A stretch of DNA of 64,000 nt. Source: Caballeronia sp. dw_19 (GTDB lineage Bacteria > Pseudomonadota > Gammaproteobacteria > Burkholderiales > Burkholderiaceae). How positions within the stretch are numbered: the stretch's first letter is position 1; every line of letters starts with the position of its first letter. Made by a program: the position numbers and the translations under genes. Positions 3,763-47,369 of the stretch are shown one piece after another. The stretch lies in the NCBI RefSeq assembly GCF_018449515.1, contig NZ_JAAVUQ010000002.1, forward strand, positions 310,001 through 374,000, written 5' to 3'. Below the pieces are notes generated by a model. The model did no database searches. It was not told the DNA's origin and saw nothing but the letters and a program-made list of their open reading frames with translations.

Positions 3763-4505
3763 GTCGCTACCCCGTCTTTCCAGCCTTGGATATTAGCGCG
3801 TGCCACCGCTTCCATCACATAACGCCGCTCGGCAAGATCGCGCAGCGCCTGCGACATCGCGACGCGAATACGCAGCTCAACCTGCTCGAACGGCAACACC
3901 AGGCCCGGCGACTTTTCGTGAACCCGGATGATATGGAAGCCGAACTCCGTTTCCACAAGCACAGGGCAGAGGGTACCAGCAGGCGCGGCAAACACCGCAC
4001 GTTCGAACGCCGCCACCGTGTCGCCGCGGCCTATCTCGCCGAGCGCGCCGCCATCGATCCCCGACGGGCAATTCGACAAGGTACGCGCAAAATCAACGAA
4101 CCGCAGTTCGAGGTCGTCGGCGTGAAGCAGTTCATCGAGTGTCTGTTGAGCGCGTTGACGCAGCGCCACCAGATCCACTCTTTCCGTAACCTGGAACAGG
4201 ATATGGCTAACCCGCGCGCGCTCGTTCACCCGCCAGCGTTCCAGGTCGGCCAGGTAGTGGCGCTCGCACTCTTCATGCGTGGGCGCGGCCGCCTCGGCAA
4301 GCTGATGATCGAGCAACGCTTCGATCATCAGCTCGTCACCCTGAGCGGAGGCGATGTGCAACTGAGCGGCTTCATCGAGCAGGACGCGGCGCAGGACAGC
4401 CGCGGTCAGCGCCGCCCGCTTTACATCCGGCGTGTCTGCATGAGCCGGCATTTCGCGCTCCAGGTCCGTGTCCGCGAGCTCCACGCCGTTGATGATGATC
4501 GCCAT
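3759..4505 (-). CDS. Parvulin-type peptidyl-prolyl cis-trans isomerase of the nar operon
   Basis: 248 residues. A helical N-terminal region (about 1-115) precedes a parvulin/rotamase domain (about 120-215) with RVSHILFQV, the SNCPSG...GGALGEIGRGD stretch and the closing TEFGFHIIRVHEK strand. There is no signal peptide, so it is probably cytoplasmic, like NifM. Parvulins of this NifM-like form are known at the end of narGHJI operons in proteobacteria, and I infer a role in folding or maturation of the nitrate reductase. It starts 19 bp after the narI stop and overlaps mobB by 4 nt. Confidence 0.87.
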   Translation of the reverse strand: MAIIINGVELADTDLEREMPAHADTPDVKRAALTAAVLRRVLLDEAAQLHIASAQGDELMIEALLDHQLAEAAAPTHEECERHYLADLERWRVNERARVSHILFQVTERVDLVALRQRAQQTLDELLHADDLELRFVDFARTLSNCPSGIDGGALGEIGRGDTVAAFERAVFAAPAGTLCPVLVETEFGFHIIRVHEKSPGLVLPFEQVELRIRVAMSQALRDLAERRYVMEAVARANIQGWKDGVAT

Positions 4506-4524
4506 GATGTTCTCCTTGAACAGG

Positions 4525-5202
4525 TTAGCGCGGCCGCACGAGTTGCCATGCGCGGCTCAGGTACGTGACGGAAGCGAAGCCGCTCCAGACGTGCACGAGC
4601 CGGGTGAACGGGAAGATGACGAACAGCGACATACCCATGAACAGATGCATCCGGAACACAAACGGTGCGGCCGCCACGTACTGCGCTGCATCGCCTCGGA
4701 AGGTGACGACGTGCTGCGCCCAGGTCATGAGCTGGACCATCATGTGGCCGTCCATGTGACCCGCTGATTCCCGGATCGTCGACAAGCCGAGCAACAGGGT
4801 AACGAGAATCCACAACAGCAGCACCTTGTCGCCGGTACGGGTCACGGCGGAAATACGCGCGTTGCTGACGCGCCGGTGAATCAGGATGACGAGACCGACG
4901 AGACAGAGGGAGCCCATCACGCCGCCCGCGATCATCGCCACGGCTTGTTTCGTGCCGTGCTCAATCCCGAGCCAGTCCCAAACGGAAACCGGCGTGAGCA
5001 GGCCGCCAAGATGCCCGAAGAAGAGCCCGAGAATACCGACGTGAAACAGGATGCTGCCAAGCCGCAGATTGCCGCGATGAAGCAACTGCGAACTGTCGGC
5101 TTTCCATGTGTACTGTTCTCGCTCGAACCGCGCGAAGCTGCCGAACAGGAAAATGGCGGCCGCAATATAGGGATAAATGCCGAACAAGAATTGATTGAGC
5201 AT
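4525..5202 (-). CDS. narI: Respiratory nitrate reductase gamma subunit NarI (cytochrome b)
   Basis: 225 residues, the normal NarI length. It has about five membrane helices beginning with FLFGIYPYIAAAIFLFGSFARF and ending near LFMGMSLFVIFPFTRLVHVWSGF. His residues in the second and last helices are positioned for the two b hemes. NarI anchors NarGH to the inner membrane, oxidises quinol on the periplasmic side and passes electrons to NarH. It lies 17 bp after narJ. Confidence 0.95.
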   Translation of the reverse strand: MLNQFLFGIYPYIAAAIFLFGSFARFEREQYTWKADSSQLLHRGNLRLGSILFHVGILGLFFGHLGGLLTPVSVWDWLGIEHGTKQAVAMIAGGVMGSLCLVGLVILIHRRVSNARISAVTRTGDKVLLLWILVTLLLGLSTIRESAGHMDGHMMVQLMTWAQHVVTFRGDAAQYVAAAPFVFRMHLFMGMSLFVIFPFTRLVHVWSGFASVTYLSRAWQLVRPR

Positions 5203-5219: not shown

Positions 5220-5897
5220 TCAGTTGGCCGTGGCCGGCGGCCGCGGATGGAAATGCATCGGCTGAGCCAGCGGCGTGGTGGTGGATGGGGCCAGCAATGG
5301 TTCGACGCCGTCAGTGCCCGGGCCGAAGCGTTCAAGTGCTTCGTCCATGTCGCGGATAGGCGGCACCTCGGCGGGTATCGGCACCACATCTGTCATTGAC
5401 CGCAATACGGTGAATACACCCGCGTACGGGCTTTCATCGCGTGCGAGACGATCGCCCAATGCAGCGAGAACGTGAATAGCCTCGCCCAGCAGCGTGCGAG
5501 CCTCAGTCGCGTCGATATTGCCCAGCACCTCGAGAAACAGCGGCACGTGATCGGGCAGTTCGTTGGTCGCCATTTCAAGACCATGCCGGCGATATTCATC
5601 GAGCAGATCGACCATCGCCTGTCCGCGGTCGCGGCTTTCGCCGTGAACGTGTTCGAACAGATGCAGGGAGTGCGCGGGGTTCCGATCGAACGTGGCGACG
5701 TAATTCTCCTGCAACTCGATCAACGGATGTGCGTTCAGCAACGTCAGCAGCGGCTGCAACGCGGCTTGTGCGGCTTGGGGAAAGGCTATGAGCGCTTGCT
5801 CGATCTCGTCCATGGCCATAAGCAATTCGGGCTCGGGATAGTCGAGCAAGCTCGCCAGCAGCGTGTAGATGGATAGGGGTTTCAGTGTGTCGTTCAC
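5220..5897 (-). CDS. narJ: Nitrate reductase molybdenum-cofactor assembly chaperone NarJ
   Basis: The best start is a GTG at 5897 (VNDTLKPLSIYTLLASLL...), which overlaps the narH stop codon. The open frame continues much further upstream, but only as a shadow of narH. The product is 225 residues with the NarJ features LLDYPEPELL, a central HSLHLFEHVHGESRDRGQAM block and PDHVPLFLEVL. NarJ is a cytoplasmic chaperone that binds apo-NarG and helps insert the Mo cofactor before membrane attachment. It is not part of the final complex. Overlap with narH suggests coupled translation. Confidence 0.94.
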   Translation of the reverse strand: MNDTLKPLSIYTLLASLLDYPEPELLMAMDEIEQALIAFPQAAQAALQPLLTLLNAHPLIELQENYVATFDRNPAHSLHLFEHVHGESRDRGQAMVDLLDEYRRHGLEMATNELPDHVPLFLEVLGNIDATEARTLLGEAIHVLAALGDRLARDESPYAGVFTVLRSMTDVVPIPAEVPPIRDMDEALERFGPGTDGVEPLLAPSTTTPLAQPMHFHPRPPATAN

Positions 5898-7447
5898 GAC
5901 GCGGACTCCGTTTTCTTGCGTGACTTGGGCATGTCGGCGAACACCACGCTGCCTTGTGGTTTCTTGCCGAACAACGATCCTTCCGACACCCCGCCCGAGC
6001 AGCCGTTGCCAAAGGTAAAGCCACAACTGCCCTTGTCGTTGAAGCTGTCTTCCACGAGTTCCTTGTGCGACGAAGGCACCACGAATCGATCCTCGTAGTT
6101 CGCGATGGCCATGGTCTGGTACATGTCCTCCACCTGGGCGGGCGTGAGGTCGAGACCGTCCAGAAGTTCGGGTTCCGCGCGGCCGTGCACGACTTCGGCA
6201 CGCTTGAACGCGCGCATGGCGAGCATGCGTTCGAGTGCGGACGTGACCGGCGCTTCGTCGCCGGCGGTCAGCAGGTTCGCCAGATACTTCACTGGAATAC
6301 GCAGGCTCTTCACGTCCGGAATGATCCCGTCCATGCCTATATGTCCCGCGTCTGCCGCCGACTGAATCGGGGAAAGTGGGGGGATGTACCACACCATTGG
6401 CAAAGTCCGGTATTCCGGGTGCAGCGGGAACGCCACCTTCCATTCCACGGCCATCTTGTAGACGGGCGATTTGACCGCGGCGTCGAGCCAGCTTTGGGGG
6501 ACGCCTTGCGCGAGCGCTTCCGCCTGCACAGCGGGATCATGCGGATCGAGGAACACGTCCAGTTGCGACTGGTACAAGTCCTGTTCGCGTTCAACCGACG
6601 CCGCTTCGCCAATTTTGTCGGCGTCATACAACAGCACGCCGAGATAGCGGATACGCCCGACGCACGTCTCCGCACAAACGGTCGGCTGACCGGCTTCAAG
6701 ACGCGGATAACAGAAGATGCACTTCTCCGCCTTGCCGCTCTTCCAGTTGAAGTAGATCTTCTTGTAAGGGCAACCGGAGATGCACATGCGCCAGCCGCGG
6801 CACTTGTCCTGGTCGACGAGCACAATGCCGTCGTCCTCGCGTTTGTACACCGAGCCCGACGGGCACGATGCCACGCACGCAGGGTTCAGGCAGTGCTCGC
6901 ACAGCCGCGGCAAGTACATCATGAAGGTGTTCTCGAAGGTCGAGTACATCTCTTTCTGCACGTTCTCGAACAGCGCGTCACGACCGCGTGACGAGAACTC
7001 GCCTCCAAGGTCATCCTCCCAGTTCGGGCCCCATTCGATCTTCTCCATCTTCTTGCCGGTGATGACGGACACGGGCCGGGCTGTTGGCGGCGTTTCAGAT
7101 AGCCGCGCGTTCTGCAAATGCTCGTAGTCGAACGTGAAGGGCTCGTAGTAGTCGTCGATAGCGGGCAGATTGGGGTTCGCGAACAGGTTCGCGAGGACCT
7201 TGAGCTTGCCGCCCTGACGCGGATGGAGCTTGCCGCTGGCGTCGCGGGTCCAGCCGCCTCGCCACTTCTTCTGGTTCTGCCATTCCTTCGGATAGCCAAT
7301 GCCTGGTTTGGTTTCAACATTGTTGAACCACGCGTACTCCACGCCGTCTCGCGAAGTCCACACGTTCTTGCACGTGACGGAGCAGGTATGGCAACCGATG
7401 CATTTGTCCAGGTTCAAAACCATTGCGACTTGCGCACGGATTTTCAT
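5894..7447 (-). CDS. narH: Respiratory nitrate reductase beta subunit NarH (Fe-S)
   Basis: 517 residues. It has four ferredoxin-type Cys clusters: LDKCIGCHTCSVTCKN near residue 14, CEHCLNPACVASCP, a third group DKCRGWRMCISGCPYKK, and CIFCYPR...CAETCVGR. The Trp in CRGWRMC replaces a cluster Cys and marks the [3Fe-4S] centre that is diagnostic for NarH. It relays electrons from the NarI hemes to NarG. Its start overlaps the narG stop by 4 nt and its end overlaps the narJ start. Confidence 0.97.
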   Translation of the reverse strand: MKIRAQVAMVLNLDKCIGCHTCSVTCKNVWTSRDGVEYAWFNNVETKPGIGYPKEWQNQKKWRGGWTRDASGKLHPRQGGKLKVLANLFANPNLPAIDDYYEPFTFDYEHLQNARLSETPPTARPVSVITGKKMEKIEWGPNWEDDLGGEFSSRGRDALFENVQKEMYSTFENTFMMYLPRLCEHCLNPACVASCPSGSVYKREDDGIVLVDQDKCRGWRMCISGCPYKKIYFNWKSGKAEKCIFCYPRLEAGQPTVCAETCVGRIRYLGVLLYDADKIGEAASVEREQDLYQSQLDVFLDPHDPAVQAEALAQGVPQSWLDAAVKSPVYKMAVEWKVAFPLHPEYRTLPMVWYIPPLSPIQSAADAGHIGMDGIIPDVKSLRIPVKYLANLLTAGDEAPVTSALERMLAMRAFKRAEVVHGRAEPELLDGLDLTPAQVEDMYQTMAIANYEDRFVVPSSHKELVEDSFNDKGSCGFTFGNGCSGGVSEGSLFGKKPQGSVVFADMPKSRKKTESAS

Positions 7448-10400
7448 GATGCCGCTCCTTCGCTTTCATTGAGCGGGCCTTCGAGCCACGCTACTTTTTT
7501 CATCTTGCGTACGATCACATACTCGTCGCGGTTCGATCCCACGGTGCCGTAGTAGTTGAAACCATAGGCCTGCTGTGCATATCCGCCGATCATGTGCGTT
7601 GGCTTGAGCACCGTGCGCGTGACCGAGTTATGAATGCCGCCGCGCATGCCGCTTGTCTCCGCGCCCGGCACGTTGATGATCTTTTCCTGAGCGTGATACA
7701 TCAGGCACATGCCGAGCGGCACGCGCTGACTCACCACCACGCGCGCAGTCAGCGTGCCGTTCACGTTGAACACTTCCACCCAGTCGTTATCGATGAGACC
7801 GGCTTGCTTCGCCTCCGCTTCCGAGACCCACACGTGCGGTCCGCCACGCGAGAGCGTCAGCATGCGCAGGTTGTCGGAATACGTGGAGTGGATGCCCCAT
7901 TTCTGGTGTGGCGTGATCCAGTTGAGCACGAGCTCATGCTCGCCGTTCGGCTTCGCGCCGAGCATCGCGGTGACGGTTTTCGTGTCAATAGCCGGGCGAT
8001 ACACGCACGAACCCTCGCCGAAATCCAGCATCCAGCGATGATCCTGATAGAACTGCTGGCGGCCCGTGAGGGTGCGCCATGGGATCAGTTCGTGCACGTT
8101 CGTATAGCCTGCGTTGTAGCTGACCTCCTCGGATTCGAGCCCTGACCAGGTCGGCGCCGAAATGATTTTGCGCGGCTGCGCCTGGACATCGCGGAAACGA
8201 ATCTTGTCGTGCTCGCGGCCTTCGGCGAGGTGTGCATGTTCGCGTCCCGTGATCTTCGACAACGCTTGCCATGCCTTCACTGCAACGTGGCCGTTGGTTT
8301 CGGGCGCGAACGTGAGGATCATTTCAGCGGCGTCGATGGCGCTGTCAAGCCGCGGACGTCCATGGCTCACGCCCGGATCCGTGACCGTGTGCGTGATGTG
8401 CGCGAGTTCATCCACCTCATGCGCGCTGTTCCAGTTGATGCCCTTGCCGCCATTGCCCTGTGTATCCAGCAATGGACCCACGGACGTGAACTTGCGATAG
8501 ACATCTTTGTAGTTGCGTTCGACCACCGTCATGGACGGCGCGGTCTTGCCGGGAATCAGGTCGCATTCACCGGCGCGCCAGTCCTTCGGCTCGAACGGCT
8601 GGCCGAGTTCGCCCGGGGTATCGTGCATGAGCGGCGTGCAGACCAGATCGGTACGGGTACCGAGATGCGCACCGCCGATCTCCGCAAACTTCTCTGCAAT
8701 GCCCTTGTAGATTTCCCAGTCGCTCTTGCTCTCCCACAACGGCTGCACGGCTTCCGACAACGGGTGAATGAACGGATGCATGTCCGATGTATTCAGGTCG
8801 TCTTTCTCGTACCACGTCGCGGTCGGCAGCACGATGTCGCCGTAAAGACAGGTCGTGCTCATGCGGAAATCAAGCACGGTCAGCAAGTCGAGCTTGCCTT
8901 CAGCCGCTTCGCGCACATGAACCTGGCCCGGCATGATGGCGTCGTTTTCATCTGAGAAGAGGGCGTTCTGCGTGCCGAGCAAATACTTCAGGAAGTATTC
9001 GTGGCCCTTGCCCGAACTGCCCAGGATGTTGGAGCGCCAGACGAACATGTTGCGCGGGAAGTTGACGGGGTTGTCGGGGTCGTCGCAAGAGAATTGCAAT
9101 GCGCCCGACTTCAGGCGGTCGACCACGTAGTCCACCGGCTTCATGCCGGCACGGGCTGCTTCGTCGGTCAGATCGAGCGGATTCGCGCCGAGTTGCGGCG
9201 CGCTCGGCAACCAGCCCATGCGCTCGGACTTCGCATTCAGGTCGAGCATGGCGAGGTTCGCATAGTTCGCCTTGTTCGCGGTCGGCGAAAGCACTTCGTT
9301 CAGCCCGACCTTCTCGTGACGCCACTGACTGGTGTGGTTATAGAAGAAGGACGTGCCGTTCATCTGACGCGGCGGCTTCGACCAGTCGAGCGCGAACGCA
9401 AGCGGCGCCCAGCCGAATTGCGGCCGAAGCTTTTCCTGACCAACGTAATGCGCCCAGCCGCCGCCGCTCTTTCCTACGCATCCGCACATCATCAGGAGGT
9501 TGATGATGCCGCGATAAATCATGTCGTTGTGATACCAGTGATTGAGCGCGGCGCCCACGATCACCATGCTCTTGCCCTGCGTCTGATGGGCGTTCGTTGC
9601 GAACTCGCGGGCCACCTGGATCACGAGATTGCGCGGCACGGTGGTGTGCTTTTCCTGCCATGCGGGCGTGTAGGGAACGTCGTCGTCGTAACTGCTGGCA
9701 ACGTTCGGGCCGTCGAGTCCCTGGTCTACCCCGTAGTTCGCCATTTGCAGGTCGAACACGGTGGCGACAAGCGCGCTCGTGCCGTCCGCGAGCGTGACGC
9801 GCCGGGCGGGGACGTGACGTTCCAGCAGCGCGTTGTGCTCGCTGCCGAAGTAGGGGAAGCCGACTGTGACCACTTCGTCATGCGTGCCCGCAGTGATCAT
9901 CGAGAGACGGGGGTCGATCGGCCGGCCGCTACCGCCGTCTTTCAGTTCGAGATTCCAGCGGCCGACCTTGCGGCCGTCGTTGTGCGCGGCTTCATTCCAG
10001 CGAAAGCCTACCGTGCCGTTGGGCGCGACGATCTGGCCGCTGTCTGCGTCGATCAAGAGCGTCTTCCATTGCGCGTTGTTCGCTTCGTCGAGGCTATCGG
10101 CGAGATGCGATGCGCGCAGGAACTGATCGGGCACCAGCATGCCGTCGTTGTCGCGCAGCAGCACGAGCATGGGCATGTCGGTGTATTGCTTTACATAGTC
10201 GCGGAAATAAGCGGATTGGTTCGATGCGTTCGCTGCGTGGAATTCCTTCAGCACGACGTGCCCCATCGCCATTGCAAGCGCGGCGTCGGTGCCTTGTTTA
10301 GGCGCAAGCCAGATGTCACCGAACTTGACCATCTCGCCGAAATCCGACGATACCGCTACCGTTTTCGTGCCCTTGTAGCGCACCTCGGTATAGAAATGCG

Positions 10401-11190
10401 CATCGGGGGTCCGGGTCTGCGGAATGTTCGAACCCCATACCATCAGATAGGTGGAGTTGTACCAATCGGCGGATTCCGGTACGTCGGTCTGCTCGCCCCA
10501 GACCTGCGGCGAAGCGGGCGGCAGGTCGCAGTACCAGTCATAGAACGAGAGGCACACTCCGCCAATCAAGCTGAGATAACGCGAACCTGCTGCGTACGAG
10601 ACCATGGACATGGCGGGAATCGGCGAGAAGCCAACCACGCGATCCGGCCCGAACTTGCCTATGGTGAACGCATTAGCCGCCGCGATCATTTCGTTAGCGG
10701 TGTCCCAGTCGGCGCGCACAAAGCCACCGAGACCACGCACGCTCTTATAGCGTTTTGACTTGACCGGGTCCTGGCTGATCGACGCCCACGCGGCGACCGG
10801 ATCGAGCGACTTGCGCGCCTCGCGCCACATTTCCATCAGGCGGCCGCGGATCATCGGATACTTGACGCGCTGCGCCGAATATACGTACCAGCTATACGAC
10901 GCCCCACGCGGACAGCCGCGCGGTTCGTGATTCGGCAGGTCGGCGCGGGTGCGCGGATAGTCGGTCTGCTGCGTCTCCCAGACAATCAGCCCGCTCTTCA
11001 CATAGACCTTCCACGAACACGAACCCGTGCAGTTCACGCCATGCGTGGAGCGCACGATCTTGTCATGTTGCCAGCGGGTTCTATAACCTTCTTCCCACTT
11101 GCGGTCTTCATTGACCACCGCACCGTGTCCGTTCGAAAACGTCGACTGCGTGCGCTTCACGAACTTCAGGCGATCCAGAAAATGACTCAT
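7444..11190 (-). CDS. narG: Respiratory nitrate reductase alpha subunit NarG (molybdopterin)
   Basis: 1248 residues, full length for NarG. Near the N terminus HGVNCTGSCSWKVYV and RGCPRGAS supply the His/Cys ligands of the FS0 cluster. The Mo-cofactor region contains VPESADWYNSTYLMVWGSN followed by PQTRTPDAHF. The C-terminal molybdopterin-binding region includes VFNVNGTLTARVVVSQRVP. It reduces nitrate to nitrite in the cytoplasm using electrons from NarH. There is no Tat twin-arginine signal, consistent with the cytoplasm-facing Nar type rather than Nap. It lies 28 bp downstream of narK2. Confidence 0.97.
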   Translation of the reverse strand: MSHFLDRLKFVKRTQSTFSNGHGAVVNEDRKWEEGYRTRWQHDKIVRSTHGVNCTGSCSWKVYVKSGLIVWETQQTDYPRTRADLPNHEPRGCPRGASYSWYVYSAQRVKYPMIRGRLMEMWREARKSLDPVAAWASISQDPVKSKRYKSVRGLGGFVRADWDTANEMIAAANAFTIGKFGPDRVVGFSPIPAMSMVSYAAGSRYLSLIGGVCLSFYDWYCDLPPASPQVWGEQTDVPESADWYNSTYLMVWGSNIPQTRTPDAHFYTEVRYKGTKTVAVSSDFGEMVKFGDIWLAPKQGTDAALAMAMGHVVLKEFHAANASNQSAYFRDYVKQYTDMPMLVLLRDNDGMLVPDQFLRASHLADSLDEANNAQWKTLLIDADSGQIVAPNGTVGFRWNEAAHNDGRKVGRWNLELKDGGSGRPIDPRLSMITAGTHDEVVTVGFPYFGSEHNALLERHVPARRVTLADGTSALVATVFDLQMANYGVDQGLDGPNVASSYDDDVPYTPAWQEKHTTVPRNLVIQVAREFATNAHQTQGKSMVIVGAALNHWYHNDMIYRGIINLLMMCGCVGKSGGGWAHYVGQEKLRPQFGWAPLAFALDWSKPPRQMNGTSFFYNHTSQWRHEKVGLNEVLSPTANKANYANLAMLDLNAKSERMGWLPSAPQLGANPLDLTDEAARAGMKPVDYVVDRLKSGALQFSCDDPDNPVNFPRNMFVWRSNILGSSGKGHEYFLKYLLGTQNALFSDENDAIMPGQVHVREAAEGKLDLLTVLDFRMSTTCLYGDIVLPTATWYEKDDLNTSDMHPFIHPLSEAVQPLWESKSDWEIYKGIAEKFAEIGGAHLGTRTDLVCTPLMHDTPGELGQPFEPKDWRAGECDLIPGKTAPSMTVVERNYKDVYRKFTSVGPLLDTQGNGGKGINWNSAHEVDELAHITHTVTDPGVSHGRPRLDSAIDAAEMILTFAPETNGHVAVKAWQALSKITGREHAHLAEGREHDKIRFRDVQAQPRKIISAPTWSGLESEEVSYNAGYTNVHELIPWRTLTGRQQFYQDHRWMLDFGEGSCVYRPAIDTKTVTAMLGAKPNGEHELVLNWITPHQKWGIHSTYSDNLRMLTLSRGGPHVWVSEAEAKQAGLIDNDWVEVFNVNGTLTARVVVSQRVPLGMCLMYHAQEKIINVPGAETSGMRGGIHNSVTRTVLKPTHMIGGYAQQAYGFNYYGTVGSNRDEYVIVRKMKKVAWLEGPLNESEGAAS

Positions 11191-31276: not shown

Positions 31277-31324
31277 GGCGCTCGATTAATAGATTGCTTT
31301 ACATTCCACTCACTCATTTTAGAA

Positions 31325-31455
31325 TGACAAGCTTGCAGCGCGAGGAAGCCGGTGAAAACCCGGCACGGTCGCGCCACTGTGAGCAGATGTCGAATGGGAC
31401 TGATAACGCTTCAGCCTTCGTTCAGCATCTGCAAGTCAGACCCCCGCTGCAGCCT
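31325..31455 (+). ncRNA. Cobalamin riboswitch 1, upstream of cbtBA
   Basis: The conserved core GCCGGTGAAAACCCGGC followed by ACGGTCGCGCCACTGT (31347-31380) is the cobalamin-binding central stem and junction. The 3' closing element AAGTCAGACCCCC is at about 31433-31445. The stretch between them forms a long hairpin (GCAGATG ... CATCTGC). It ends about 42 bp before the cbtB start. Cobalamin binding is expected to reduce expression of the cobalt transporter. Confidence 0.92.
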
Positions 31456-31496
31456 TTCTTTTGTCTTACGGGACGCGCATTCCCTTGGAGTCGTTC

Positions 31497-35125: not shown

Positions 35126-35319
35126 GATGGCGCTCGGTTCGCACAGCCCGGACACATGTAAGCAAAACCGCTGAAAGACGGCCGCTGGGTCGAGCTCGAT
35201 ACTGAGCGCAAGCGTTGAAAAATTGGATTCATGTACGACGATATAAGCATTACGTCCTTCATCCGTCCCTCGCGGATGTGGCGTCCAGCGCGCTGTTAAA
35301 GCTAAAGCGCGCCACTTGG

Positions 35320-35566
35320 CGACTGGCCGGTATCCGGGCTTGGCGACCGCATTCCGCTCGCCTTCCCGCTCGTCGGAGCAGTGGCTGTGGAGGAAATGGG
35401 CGCACGGTTCGATGACAGCCAGAAATGAGAGTCAGTCGAAGCGAGCGCGGGTCGCGTACCGTTGCGGGGGACAGCACAGGTTTCGTCGACACGGCGCATT
35501 GGGCATGAAGCGTGAGCCTTGAGCCTCGAAAATACGCGCGTGCACATCCTGTTTCCCGTTTAACTA
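35320..35566 (-). ncRNA. Cobalamin riboswitch 2, upstream of cobE-cobO-cobB
   Basis: On the minus strand the RNA begins near GTTAAACGGGAAACAGG, has the diagnostic CTGTCCCCCGCAACGGTAC (revcomp of about 35457-35475), and ends with CCAAGCCCGGATACCGGCC (35324-35342). It lies about 195 bp before the cobE start. The 5' core is less regular than in riboswitch 3, lacking a clear GCCGG...CCGGC stem, with a variable domain instead. It is still recognisable from its box elements. Confidence 0.85.
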
Positions 35567-35746
35567 CGCGCGCCGGAAAAGCGCGCGTGAGCACCAGACG
35601 CGGGCCAAAGATAGCACAGCGGGTGTCGGTTGCGCTGGGCTTTTACAGGCTGGAACCGGCGGCGGCGCAGGTTTTCCGCGCTCGCAATAGCGCAAGCGCG
35701 CGTTTGCAGGGACGGGTTAAACCCGCTTGCATGCCCCGCCCGAACC
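35567..35746. other. Divergent promoter region between riboswitches 2 and 3
   Basis: About 180 bp that must carry promoters for both riboswitch-led operons. The plus-strand promoter is clear (35747-35775). On the minus strand a TGCTATCTT extended -10-like element at about 35610 is a weak candidate without a good -35. No ORF is credible here. Confidence 0.45.
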
Positions 35747-35775
35747 TTGACGCTAATCCCCCATCAGCCTAGACT
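35747..35775 (+). promoter_or_regulatory. Sigma-70 promoter for riboswitch 3 / cobW operon
   Basis: TTGACG (35747-35752), a 17-bp spacer and TAGACT (35770-35775) form a good housekeeping promoter. Transcription would start near 35782, about 40 nt before the first conserved riboswitch bases. Confidence 0.65.
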
Positions 35776-35820
35776 TCGCGGTAGTTTTCTGGTGCTCGCG
35801 CGTGGTCTCTGCTGCGCGCA

Positions 35821-36025
35821 GTTAAACGGGAAGCAGGAAGCGTTGCCGGAACCCCGGCCATGCCAACCTGCGCTGCCCCCGCAACGGTAAACGAAAATCG
35901 CGCGACGTGGTTTTACCCTGATTCACGCCACTCGCGCGGTAAAGCCGCCTTCGAAAAACCACTGCATGCCCATGTCATGCGGGAAGGTGAAGCGGCATTT
36001 TCGCCAGCCCGGATACCGGCCGGAA
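35821..36025 (+). ncRNA. Cobalamin riboswitch 3, upstream of cobW-cobN-chlID
   Basis: The conserved boxes read GTTAAACGGGAAGCAGGAAG, then GTTGCCGGAACCCCGGCC, then CTGCGCTGCCCCCGCAACGG (35869-35886), and close with GCCAGCCCGGATACCGGCC (36004-36022). Between the third and last boxes about 115 nt form a long variable domain. It ends about 185 bp before cobW, leaving room for an expression platform. Confidence 0.93.
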
Positions 36026-36210
36026 CGAGTAACACCTGAAGCGGGCGTTTGTCGCGGGGATGCGGCATATGCTCGATACTTTTCACCATGCTTTTTCCGG
36101 ATTGCCGTCCTGCATTGCGACGCTTGTGAGCGCATTTTATTGTTCGCCTTGGGCGGCAAAGGACCACGCATTCCGGCAGCAAGCAGCCAATCAATAGCAC
36201 GGAGCAACGG

Positions 36211-40300: not shown

Positions 40301-41076
40301 ACGAACACATGGCGCGCGGGCTGGATGAAAAGGAAGCGCGCTTGCGCGCGGGTTGGCGCGTATTCAGCACGAAGCCGGGCGCATACGGCGCGGGTTTGCA
40401 GGAAATGATCGACGCCAAGCAATGGCAAAACGACGCTGACCTTGCGCGCGGTTTCCAAAGTTCAGGCGGTTATGCGTATTCGCAAAAGGGCGATGGCGTT
40501 GAGGCCCGCGACACCTTTGGCGCGCGCTTGTCGACCATCGACGTGGTGGTGCAGAACCAGGACAACCGCGAACACGACCTGCTGGATTCGAACGACTATC
40601 ACCAGTTCCAGGGCGGCATGGTGGCGGCCGTGCGGCATCTTTCGGGTACCCAGCCGCAAGCGTATAACCCCGATCACAGTAATCCGGCCGCGCCCCGCAT
40701 CCGCACGTTGCAGGAAGAAATCTCACGCGTGATCCGCTCGCGCGTAGTCAATCCGAAATGGATCGACGGCGTGAAGCGGCATGGTTACAAGGGTGCCTCG
40801 GAACTCGCGGCAACAGTAGATTATCTGTTTGGTTACGATGCCACCGCGCGGGTCGTATCGGATCATCAGTACGCGCTTGTTGCCGATGCCTACGTCAACG
40901 ACGCTGACACGCGCGAGTTCATGCAGCAGCATAATCCGCACGCGCTGCACTCGATCTGCGAGCGTTTGACCGAAGCGATGCAGCGCGGCTTATGGCAAAG
41001 TCCAGGCGCGTATCAGGACCAGATCGAACGCCATCTGCTGGACGCCGAACAGCAACTCGAAGGGCAACGAACGTGA
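37303..41076 (+). CDS. cobN: Cobaltochelatase large subunit CobN
   Basis: 1257 residues, the usual CobN size, of the CobN/BchH magnesium-chelatase large-subunit family. Family stretches include IVHVGKHGNLEWLPGKSVAL, PHLYPFIVNDPGEGSQAKRR, IGLSVWGTATMRTGGDDIAQ and RNFYSVDTRAVPTRAAW. It binds the corrin a,c-diamide and inserts cobalt with an ATPase partner. No cobS/cobT lies in the window. The partner here is the ChlI/ChlD-type gene that overlaps its stop codon (GTGA). It is the second gene after riboswitch 3. Confidence 0.95.
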   Translation: MHLLRTTPGGFVDDAAGVMRIDQTPAPIVVLSSADTTLSLLASVVPHLEADFPALRLANQAFLRQPASVDFYVDDVLRHARVIVIDHLGGEAYWPYGIESITALARRNGQMLVMFSGDLQEDPNLVAKSTAEPELCDQLWRYLREGGAKNAEEFLRCIAFRALGYGREAHAPSPLPTVAIYHPARQIATIDDWKKRWIQGAPVVAVLFYRAHLQSGNTDVFDALIEALEAHGLNPLPIAMASLKDPLSREVVQQLCADHGASLVLNTTSFAAGVIDDPVPFELAGDAPVLQVILSGGNREDWLKDNHGLNSRDVAMHVALPEVDGRIITRAISFKGLAYRCKITQVDVVRYQPDLERVRFVAELSKRWCRLRQLANADKRIALVLANYPLSEGRIGNGVGLDTPASVVNILSMLANEGYRVDDIPADGDALMHALTSGVTNDPVVRDLRPALQSLALDDYLDAFNKLPDNVQQELNTRWGPPESDPTIRRGRFMIAGWRCGHVFIGIQPARSRERGDYASYHDAELVPPHAYLAFYFWLRLRFNVDAIVHVGKHGNLEWLPGKSVALSASCWPDLTLGAMPHLYPFIVNDPGEGSQAKRRAQAVIIDHLMPPLTRAENYGPLQDLERQVDEYYEALMVDPRRAKLLRKTILASIVEHRLHEELGLDKPRDSNTEDALLTRADAYLCELKEAQIRDGLHVFGASPQGVQRRDTLLALGRYPTGDAQGANASVLTALARDLNLGDTFDPLDADWSAPWTGPRPAELETVIDAPWRHHGDTRERLELLATSLLDRPSDAAGPNTSQVLKRLNGDLLARLDACGPQELKQLQRGLDGRFVPPGPSGSPSRGRPDVLPTGRNFYSVDTRAVPTRAAWTLGLKSANLLIERHLQEHGDYPRAIGLSVWGTATMRTGGDDIAQAMALIGVRPKWAAGSNRVTDFEVLPITIFNRPRIDVTLRVSGFFRDAFANLMHLFDAAVQAVAELNDEAEDINPIRARIMRERDEHMARGLDEKEARLRAGWRVFSTKPGAYGAGLQEMIDAKQWQNDADLARGFQSSGGYAYSQKGDGVEARDTFGARLSTIDVVVQNQDNREHDLLDSNDYHQFQGGMVAAVRHLSGTQPQAYNPDHSNPAAPRIRTLQEEISRVIRSRVVNPKWIDGVKRHGYKGASELAATVDYLFGYDATARVVSDHQYALVADAYVNDADTREFMQQHNPHALHSICERLTEAMQRGLWQSPGAYQDQIERHLLDAEQQLEGQRT

Positions 41077-42071
41077 ACGAATTCATCTTCCCGTTTGCCG
41101 CATTGGTCGTACAAGAACCCTTGCAGCAAGCACTTTTACTCGCCGCGGTCGATCCGGCACTGGGCGGCGTGCTGGTCAGCGGTCCGCGTGGGACCGCGAA
41201 ATCGACGACTGCGCGCGCGCTTGCCGAACTGCTGCCCGAAGGGCAGTTCGTGACTTTGCCGCTGGGGGCAAGCGAAGAACAGTTGATCGGTTCGCTGGAT
41301 ATCGAAGCTGTCTTGCGCGACGGCGGCGTGCGCTTTTCGCCGGGTTTGCTCGCGAGGGCGCATAAGGGCGTGTTGTACGTCGATGAAGTGAATCTGCTGC
41401 CCAATCAACTCGTGGACCCGTTACTCGACGTAGCCGCGAGTGGGGTGAACGTGATCGAACGCGACGGCATTTCGCATCGGCATGAAGCGCGGTTTGTGTT
41501 GGTCGGAACCATGAATCCGGAGGAGGGCGAACTCAGGCCGCAATTGCTGGATCGCTTCGGCTTGGCGGTGGAATTGCAGAATTGTTTCGATGCTGAAAAA
41601 CGCCGTGAGATCGTCAAGGCGCGTCTCGCATTCGATACGAATCCGGAAGCTTTTCGCTCGCAGTTTGCGGGGCAGCAAGCCGCCTTGGCCCTGAGGCTTC
41701 GCCAAGCCAGAGCGACGCTTCTGACGCTCGAATTCGACGACGCAGTTCACGCGCGCGTCAGCGAGTTATGTATCAATGCTCATGTGGACGGCTTGCGCGC
41801 CGATCTCGTCATGCTGCGCGCAGCGCGAGCGCTGGCAGCCTTTGAAGCAGCTTCAGCGGTGAACGTGGAACACGTTGAACGCGTGGCGGAGTCGGTGTTG
41901 CTGCATCGGCGCAAGGATGGCAGCGCGGCTAGCGATCATGGCTCTTCTGAGCCTAGCCCACAACAACGTCCCAAAGACACTGACGAAGCAAGCTTCGGCT
42001 ACATGCCTCCCGAGCCCGTAGACATCACAGCAGTCAAGAACGTAAGGCCGCTTGCAGCAAAAAAATCCTGA
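41073..42071 (+). CDS. chlI: Cobaltochelatase AAA+ ATPase subunit, ChlI-like (zero-frame product)
   Basis: 332 residues from a GTG at 41073 that overlaps the cobN stop. An in-frame Met at 40992 lies inside cobN. The AAA+ core has Walker A SGPRGTAKSTTARAL, Walker B GVLYVDEVNLLPNQLVDPLL, sensor LVGTMNPEEGELRPQLLDRF and the helical lid. It corresponds to BchI/ChlI and should power CobN. The frame ends Ala-Ala-Lys-Lys-Ser-stop immediately after an A7 run. This short product is one of the two predicted outputs of the gene (see the fused product). Confidence 0.92.
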   Translation: MNEFIFPFAALVVQEPLQQALLLAAVDPALGGVLVSGPRGTAKSTTARALAELLPEGQFVTLPLGASEEQLIGSLDIEAVLRDGGVRFSPGLLARAHKGVLYVDEVNLLPNQLVDPLLDVAASGVNVIERDGISHRHEARFVLVGTMNPEEGELRPQLLDRFGLAVELQNCFDAEKRREIVKARLAFDTNPEAFRSQFAGQQAALALRLRQARATLLTLEFDDAVHARVSELCINAHVDGLRADLVMLRAARALAAFEAASAVNVEHVERVAESVLLHRRKDGSAASDHGSSEPSPQQRPKDTDEASFGYMPPEPVDITAVKNVRPLAAKKS

Positions 42072-42745
42072 GCCATCGAAGACCGGATGCACAGGCCGAA
42101 CCCGGCCGCCTTCGATGGCTAGAACCTTCCTCGCCGGGTAGAACACGATCACGCGCAGGGGAAGCGAGCGCTCGCATCGACTGGTTGCAAACGCTGCTGG
42201 CGAAACGCAATCATCCTTTGGATAAAACGCACCTGAGGTTTCATCGCGAGCAAGGCGACAGCACCGCGCTGCATTGCTTCGTGCTTGATTGCTCCGGCTC
42301 CATGCTTAGCGGCAAGCGGCTTGCGCTGGCTAAAGGACTGGTCGTGGCGTTGTTCGACCGGGCGTACCGCGAGCGTGCAGAGGTGGCGCTGGTCTGCTTC
42401 GGCGGTGCGACGGCGCAAGTGCGTCGCGAACCCGGGGCGGCACATTGGTGGAACGATCGCTGGCTTGCGCCGATAGGTGGCGGCGGAGGAACGCCGCTCG
42501 CGCTGGGCGTGCGCACTGGCGCCAATGTACTTCTGAAGGCTGCACGTCGCCGCCCTTCGCAGCGGCGTTTCCTGTGGCTGCTGACCGACGGCCGCAGTCC
42601 GGAAACGCCATCGCGTCCCGATGCAGCGGATCAGATTGTCATCGTCGATTTCGAGAGTGAGGCGGTGCGTTTAGGGCGTTGCATGACGCTCGCCGAGTCG
42701 TGGCAAGCCGAGTACCGTACGGCCGCTTCCATGACTTCCGGCTAG
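41073..42745 (+). CDS. chlD: ChlI-ChlD fusion made by predicted programmed -1 frameshift
   Basis: If ribosomes slip back one base at 42059-42065, translation continues from 42065 in the -1 frame to the TAG at 42743-42745. The result is a protein of about 557 residues: 331 of the ATPase plus 226 more. The added part begins ILSHRRPDAQAEPG, passes a basic linker (RTRSRAGEASARIDWLQTLL) and forms a von Willebrand A domain with the MIDAS motif CFVLDCSGSMLSGKRLAL and a later LLTDGRS. The -1 frame is open from 41984 and has no ATG/GTG/TTG until TTG 42185, which is inside the conserved IDWLQTLLA segment. The fusion matches the ChlD (I plus VWA) architecture. The downstream stop is one base from that of the convergent cobJ. 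Confidence 0.85.
42044..42120 (+). promoter_or_regulatory. Programmed -1 ribosomal frameshift signal
   Basis: Three stimulators occur in the right order. An SD-like AAGG is at 42044-42047, 11 nt before the slip site. The slippery heptamer A-AAA-AAA is at 42059-42065, phased with zero-frame codons GCA AAA AAA. After a 5-nt spacer a hairpin begins with arms AGCCATCGAAG (42071-42081) and CTTCGATGGCT (42110-42120), perfect over 11 bp, with an inner GGCCG/CGGCC stem. The layout resembles the dnaX frameshift site. Confidence 0.85.
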
Positions 42746-47048: not shown

Positions 47049-47182
47049 AGTAGTGAGTGGTTCGTTCAAAGCGTGACCCGTTCGGTCTCGCGCGGCGCCT
47101 CGAGCATGCCGGACCCTTTGAGAGCATGGCACGTTCGCGGCATCGGTACACCCCGCCCGATGCTGGCTTGCACGAAGAATTC

Positions 47183-47332
47183 CGGTCGGCAGGTCTCTTG
47201 GCTTGCAGGTCGCCGTCCGTACCGGCCTTCCCAGTCGAAACCAGTGGCAGTGGAGCGCGGACTCGCTGCGTACAATTGCGGGGGCAGCCACAGTTCTGCT
47301 GTGTTCCCTGTTAGGCCCGTAAGGGCACCGAC
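47183..47332 (-). ncRNA. Cobalamin riboswitch 4, upstream of cobGHIJ
   Basis: Read on the minus strand: a 5' stem GTCGGTGCCCTTACGGGC, then CAGGGAACACAGCAG, then the core GTGGCTGCCCCCGCAATTGT, and the closing GCAAGCCAAGAGACCTGCCG near 47185-47206. These are the standard cobalamin riboswitch boxes. About 135 nt separate it from the cobG start. Confidence 0.92.
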
Positions 47333-47340
47333 TAACCGCG

Positions 47341-47369
47341 GTATTATGCCCGTTTTTGCGGCGGTTAAA
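47341..47369 (-). promoter_or_regulatory. Sigma-70 promoter for riboswitch 4 / cobGHIJ
   Basis: On the minus strand TTTAAC (47369-47364), a 17-bp spacer and TAATAC (47346-47341) form a good promoter, placing the transcript start within a few bases of the first riboswitch stem at 47332. Confidence 0.7.

Follow-up and report, generated by a model that had tools for sequence, protein, structure and literature searches.

A conserved -1 frameshift cassette in the chlD gene beside cobN of Caballeronia sp. dw_19 probably yields two chelatase subunits

The window analysed here is a 64,000-nucleotide stretch of the genome of Caballeronia sp. dw_19 (9.06 Mb, 153 contigs). On its forward strand, a cobalamin riboswitch is followed by a cobW-family GTPase gene, by cobN and by a gene that starts as a ChlI-type ATPase and continues, one frame back, into a VWA domain (Table 1). 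The genome has a single PF02514 match, that of CobN, and the GTG at 41073 with which the ChlI-type frame starts overlaps the TGA of cobN. Among the best 80 of at least 589 confirmed candidates, the closest named relatives are C. sordidicola (89%) and C. udeis (87%). Three other cobalamin riboswitches, one RF01482 and two RF00174 matches, flank the B12 cluster at 31316-31495 (+), 35308-35613 (-) and 47171-47347 (-).

Table 1. Features of the cobN-chlD locus, in window coordinates, and of the CobS/CobT-family pair on contig C122, in coordinates of locus L099 (G000:C122:68000-86000)
Feature	Position	Strand	Evidence or remark
Cobalamin riboswitch aptamer, upstream of operon	35773..36038	+	Rfam RF00174, 59.8 bits (gathering 31.5)
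cobW-family GTPase gene, 362 aa	36211..37299	+	PF02492 194.7 bits, PF07683 57.5 bits
cobN, cobaltochelatase large subunit, 1257 aa	37303..41076	+	TIGR02257 1579.6 bits (cut-off 822)
fs-chlD 0 frame, short product, ChlI-type AAA+ ATPase, 332 aa, GTG start	41073..42071	+	TIGR02442 N-terminal half 388.7 bits; TIGR02030 333.8 bits
SD-like AAGG, probably not functional	42044..42047	+	-3.7 kcal/mol with anti-SD; 11 nt before the A-run
Slippery heptamer A_AAA_AAA, 0-frame phase	42059..42065	+	Read directly; then TCC, then TGA
fs-chlD -1 frame, linker and VWA with MIDAS, 226 codons and TAG (42743-42745)	42065..42745	+	PF13519/PF00092; TIGR02442 C-terminal half 90.3 bits
0-frame stop TGA	42069..42071	+	One codon past the heptamer
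Stem-loop 3' of the slip site: 11-bp outer stem (42071-42081/42110-42120), 5-bp inner stem (42094-42098/42103-42107)	42071..42120	+	Fold, independent search, covariation
CobS-family gene (L099)	7328-8335		
CobT-family gene (L099)	8272-10074		
xsc (L099)	5281-7173	-	
pta (L099)	4119-5168	-	

The ATPase frame, which has solved relatives in ChlI/BchI (6l8d, 8osf, 1g8p), closes just after the heptamer, from which the -1 frame runs on as ATC CTG AGC towards a VWA domain with the MIDAS motif DCSGS. Joined, the two frames would give a ChlI-VWA product of 557 aa. No ordinary start was found at the junction, the earliest ATG, GTG or TTG of the -1 frame past its own preceding stop being the TTG at 42185. 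The outer stem, AGCCATCGAAG/CTTCGATGGCT, begins 5 nt past the heptamer; it is a 100% match over 11 nt and was recovered by an independent search, and the inner stem, GGCCG/CGGCC, was read from the sequence. A preliminary description had placed the same elements here, and its anatomy and coordinates hold, from the phase of the heptamer, the stop and the open -1 frame without a junction start to the VWA domain with its MIDAS and the perfect 11-bp stem. A6R heptamers are not rare by themselves (eight in the window, 7.58 expected), and the local fold at the cassette is moderately unusual (z -2.92; 3 of 200 shuffles equally stable). At the level of sequence, what settles that the arrangement goes beyond chance is the conservation of heptamer, phase and stop position together with the covariation of the stem, rather than the heptamer or the fold alone.

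For this comparison, 149 loci were assembled: the 80 best of at least 589 candidates from a named collection, a sample biased towards close relatives, the window itself, 29 further matches and 39 loci fetched from the same family. Of the 149, 140 have A_AAA_AA(A/G), always in the same phase, where the ATPase frame ends. For the VWA domain, 139 loci have the match in the -1 frame and eight in the same frame, with none found in two (L026 and L162). In the nine loci lacking the cassette a single frame holds both domains, judged by the BLAST offset for eight and by the translation for L162. Merging six loci with identical 180-nt surroundings leaves 134 distinct cassettes, among which L026, L064 and L069 (early in-frame stop, metagenome assembly) were kept. 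The heptamer is A_AAA_AAA in 84 of these, with seven As in 83 and eight in one, and A_AAA_AAG in 50. A stop follows exactly one codon past it in all 134 (TGA in 95, TAG in 39, TAA in none), and by a strict pattern the -1 frame is open from heptamer to MIDAS in 132, the exceptions being L064, with a variant MIDAS, and L026, which closes early. L026 comes from Cupriavidus basilensis OR16; the cassette is there, and the -1 frame shuts after 65 codons, downstream of about position 4020, through assembly error or decay. Every one of the 62 family genomes with a close ChlI carries the cassette, two of them as A_AAA_AAG.

The stem was examined in an alignment of the 84 cassettes of the A_AAA_AAA type, using 16 named pairs. 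These pairs are formed in 86.1% of 1336 cells. Shuffles give 76.3% and versions with a slid partner strand 28 to 51%, the latter comparison being favoured by a structure that was drawn from the consensus of the same 84 sequences. Two-sided changes number 146, compared with 53 in shuffles and at most 64 in slid controls. The covariation score is 0.317, a value reached in 0 of 500 shuffles (0.161), which kinship alone can beat, and well above the slid controls (at most 0.118), which retain kinship. Counted by pair, two-sided changes are not clearly more frequent than in shuffles (11 pairs versus 9.1, matched by 53 of 500), and RNAalifold retains 6 pairs over the whole alignment. Taken singly, the sequences score above the 95% control level for the outer stem in 97 of 134 cassettes and above the 99% level in 62. 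The mean folding energy is -35.2 kcal/mol at the cassette versus -28.1 kcal/mol elsewhere in the same genes, where 13% of control windows equal the median cassette in stability. Passages of a 2016 review describe a strong potential for structure without strong conservation of sequence (PMC5009743), a combination from which covariation is to be expected. Because the stem covaries across relatives, the aligned sequences suggest that it is selected at the RNA level. The preliminary description had proposed a -1 frameshift cassette linking a ChlI ATPase to a VWA (ChlD) tail, with an alignment of orthologs as a check; the cassette proves to be conserved in 140 of 149 loci and adjoins the only CobN gene found in the genome, the phase of the A-run is kept throughout these 140, and the stem pairs show compensatory changes among the 84 aligned sequences.

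The AAGG upstream of the heptamer fares differently from slip site and stem. Within the 21 loci assigned to Caballeronia and its nearest kin, an SD-like duplex is enriched, with a mean of -5.47 kcal/mol where control positions give -1.97 kcal/mol; the copy in the window ranks towards the weak end of this set. The other 63 A7-type loci show no enrichment (-2.51 versus -2.35 kcal/mol), and the 50 A6G loci a slight one (-3.18 versus -2.35 kcal/mol). The bases of this region encode Val-Arg-Pro-Leu in the window. An upstream Shine-Dalgarno stimulator was rejected as a general element, being weak in the window and unenriched in the 63 loci, and on the same grounds AAGG is not supported as a functional SD element. 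The earlier view that all elements of a dnaX-like cassette are present is thus borne out for slip site and stem and not for an internal SD about 10 nt upstream.

In the mechanism we propose, most ribosomes would read to the TGA at 42069 and make the 332-aa ChlI-type ATPase, and a minority would slip by -1 on A_AAA_AAA, both lysyl-tRNAs moving back one base. The stem 5 nt downstream would hold the mRNA and aid the slippage, and the slipped ribosomes would make the 557-aa ATPase-linker-VWA (ChlD-type) protein. Short and long products would share one AAA+ module and probably form the motor that helps CobN to insert cobalt into the corrin ring. How much of each is made would follow from how often ribosomes slip, perhaps about once in ten if the published cassette of seven As is a guide. 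From the sequences we infer a useful rate of slippage, its ribosomal nature, and the assembly of both products and their action on CobN. Classical BchD has a degenerate ATPase. The Walker A of the shared module, as read in the sequence, is apparently intact, and with an intact Walker A in a shared module the D-type subunit predicted here could not have a BchD-like degenerate ATPase. We regard it as highly probable that the gene is a frameshifted chlD (fs-chlD) in a riboswitch-cobW-cobN-chlD operon, its two products working with CobN as proposed.

A second close ChlI was not found in the genome, where the next match stands at 6e-7. It had also been thought that cobS and cobT are lacking, which fails at genome scale: CobS- and CobT-family genes lie on contig C122, beside xsc and not beside cobN. 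The CobS homologue scores 537.7 bits, just under the cut-off of 558.6, and has the CobS_N domain; the CobT homologue scores 300.9 bits against a cut-off of 759. The pair adjoins genes matching xsc, pta and phnW. This raises the alternative that CobS and CobT from C122 are the true partners of CobN and that the frameshifted gene does something else. Among 150 genomes of the family, CobS_N is found in 48, CobN in 73, a close ChlI in 62 and an in-frame ChlI-VWA fusion in 7. CobN is present in all 62 close-ChlI genomes and all 7 fusion genomes. CobS_N occurs in 26 of the 62 genomes with the frameshifted gene, in keeping with that alternative; however, it is absent from the other 36, and it occurs in none of the 7 with a fusion. 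CobN and CobS occur together in 29 of 48 CobS genomes, with CobS_N present without CobN in 19 (association p 0.055). Xsc, in contrast, is found in 51 of the 150 genomes, in 47 together with CobS and in four alone, leaving one genome with CobS alone (G071; Fisher p 5e-33, a statistic that ignores relatedness). CobS and Xsc share a contig in 47 of 47 genomes, within 8 kb in 41 and within about 32 kb in all. In the 20 of 48 CobS neighbourhoods that were fetched, Xsc lies within 7 kb on either side in 16, in varying order and orientation, and the four without it are all of one genus. Together with the overlap of the frameshifted gene with the end of cobN, these counts make it unlikely that CobN has its true partners in CobS and CobT while the frameshifted gene does something else. 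As CobS goes with Xsc more than with CobN, fs-chlD is, by its genomic company, the likeliest partner of CobN.

By the same kind of evidence, CobST appears to go with sulfonate catabolism here. We tentatively suggest, as an idea that falls somewhat short of probable, that CobN of Burkholderiaceae has the frameshifted gene as its only motor and that the CobS/CobT-family pair has been recruited to serve sulfoacetaldehyde acetyltransferase (Xsc), or the pathway of that enzyme, as a dedicated AAA+/VWA helper. If so, a pair annotated as vitamin B12 enzymes would belong to sulfonate catabolism. Because these genes accompany xsc, an annotation as CobS/CobT would seem to say little about whether a member of the family makes B12, and surveys counting genes for B12 producers could be misled by it. 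A Caulobacter vibrioides control matches CobS and CobT and neither Xsc nor CobN, which speaks against a general rule. A limited literature search found no paper joining sulfoacetaldehyde acetyltransferase and cobaltochelatase, and the link may still be published; it is the most interesting loose end of the analysis. Separately, a distant CobS/CobT-like AAA and VWA pair lies on contig C69 (L100, G000:C69:1-18000; 7647-9467 (-) and 9505-10716 (-); 119.6 and 123.6 bits), its AAA protein carrying a CbbQ_C domain. Genomes of one genus of the family (g3; G002, G045, G089, G107, G131, G138, G145 and others) have a second kind of CobN that scores about 915 to 985 bits versus about 1310 to 1360, and in G045, G138 and G145 this lower-scoring CobN is the sole one, without a close ChlI match.

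Other explanations concern the junction itself. RNA polymerase could slip on the A-run, so that mRNAs with one A more or fewer fuse the frames, and the runs of seven or eight As in 84 of 134 cassettes would allow this. Yet in 50 of the 134, two of them within the window's own family, the heptamer is A_AAA_AAG and the run is no longer than six As, the X_XXX_XXR phase that polymerase does not need is identical in all 134, and a covarying stem 5-6 nt downstream fits slippage by the ribosome, so that we consider transcriptional slippage quite unlikely. Alternatively, the VWA part could be a separate protein, translated from a start codon of its own or coupled to termination at the end of ChlI. An ATG, GTG or TTG does occur in the -1 frame within 200 nt downstream in 126 of 134 cassettes (upstream in 59), 38 have one accompanied by an SD-like tetramer close to the slip site, and the window has its TTG at 42185, so that internal starts may play a part in individual loci. 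However, no start position is conserved: even the most widely shared occurs in no more than 48% of the VWA frames, two codons upstream of the MIDAS. The -1 frame is open from heptamer to MIDAS in 132 of 134 cassettes, nine relatives are single-frame fusions, and a separate start would leave the heptamer unexplained; we consider it very unlikely. A mistake in sequencing or assembly, or decay of the gene, would fit an annotation resembling an interrupted gene; this reading is scarcely credible and is refuted by the run, phase and stop that 140 of 149 loci from many assemblies have in common.

A frameshifted chlD is not the only arrangement found with CobN. In eight genomes of the family, CobN is accompanied by one ChlI-type gene alone, and in seven of them that gene was read as an in-frame fusion (L162 to L168, from G017, G008, G053, G105, G037, G121 and G029); the eighth, G038, is 70% complete and was judged by a long open frame alone. 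Reverse (dnaX-type) slip sites were considered in all nine in-frame fusions and rejected. For the motifs scanned, the seven from Burkholderiaceae have none where the two domains meet, their hits falling within the ATPase in L165 and towards the end of the VWA in L163 and L168. CobS_N, found in 48 genomes of the family, is absent from all eight. In the fusions L078 and L083, GGGAAAG and TAAAAAA lie between the domains, and the -1 frame closes 7 and 10 codons on. Since there are fusion genomes without a boundary slip site, the two-product scheme is not universal; a single fused product beside CobN may suffice, or the small subunit may be made another way. The premise that such chelatases need both an I-type and a D-type subunit is weakened by these eight genomes, seven of them with a fusion that was read.

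Frameshifting in chlD is an already described phenomenon. A frameshifted chlD is reportedly described by Antonov in 2020 (Mol Biol Evol 37:2268). The statement in the preliminary description that chlD-type frameshifting had been reported agrees with passages of two papers (PMC3711429, PMC9227772). Those of the first place 23 fs-genes, shifting by -1 and spread over six genera including Burkholderia, in a magnesium-chelatase cluster, and give reporter frameshift efficiencies of 63% with 11 As, 40% with 9 and 10% with 7, with the organism for each value not given there (Antonov et al. 2013, PMC3711429). Those of the second state that fs-chlD supplies both subunits for CobN and present a database covering over 1200 genomes (Kuznetsov et al. 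2022, PMC9227772). The present locus would confirm, by sequence, the published finding that two subunits of an enzyme can come from one gene, to which stem covariation adds evidence beyond the fs-chlD passages cited.

As far as those passages go, the published fs-chlD and the gene described here share an ATPase frame followed by a -1-frame VWA, A_AAA_AAR, a downstream stem and a position adjoining cobN. There is no difference in kind, and what is added here is the covariation of the stem, the want of a general SD and the coexisting CobS/CobT pair. In E. coli dnaX, an A-rich heptamer with a stem about 5 nt downstream gives two products with a common AAA+ module, the shifted product being the shorter one. 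The shifted product here would be the longer, and the upstream SD of dnaX is not supported. With the CobN-CobS-CobT cobaltochelatase the system shares the large-subunit family and, by inference, the reaction; it differs in motor subunits of the ChlI/ChlD type that would come from one gene, with the CobST of the genome lying elsewhere, beside xsc. The in-frame ChlID of other Burkholderiaceae genera (TIGR02442 type) has the same two domains and is likewise a lone ChlI-type gene accompanying CobN; it differs in having one reading frame, with no boundary slip site in the seven fusions read.
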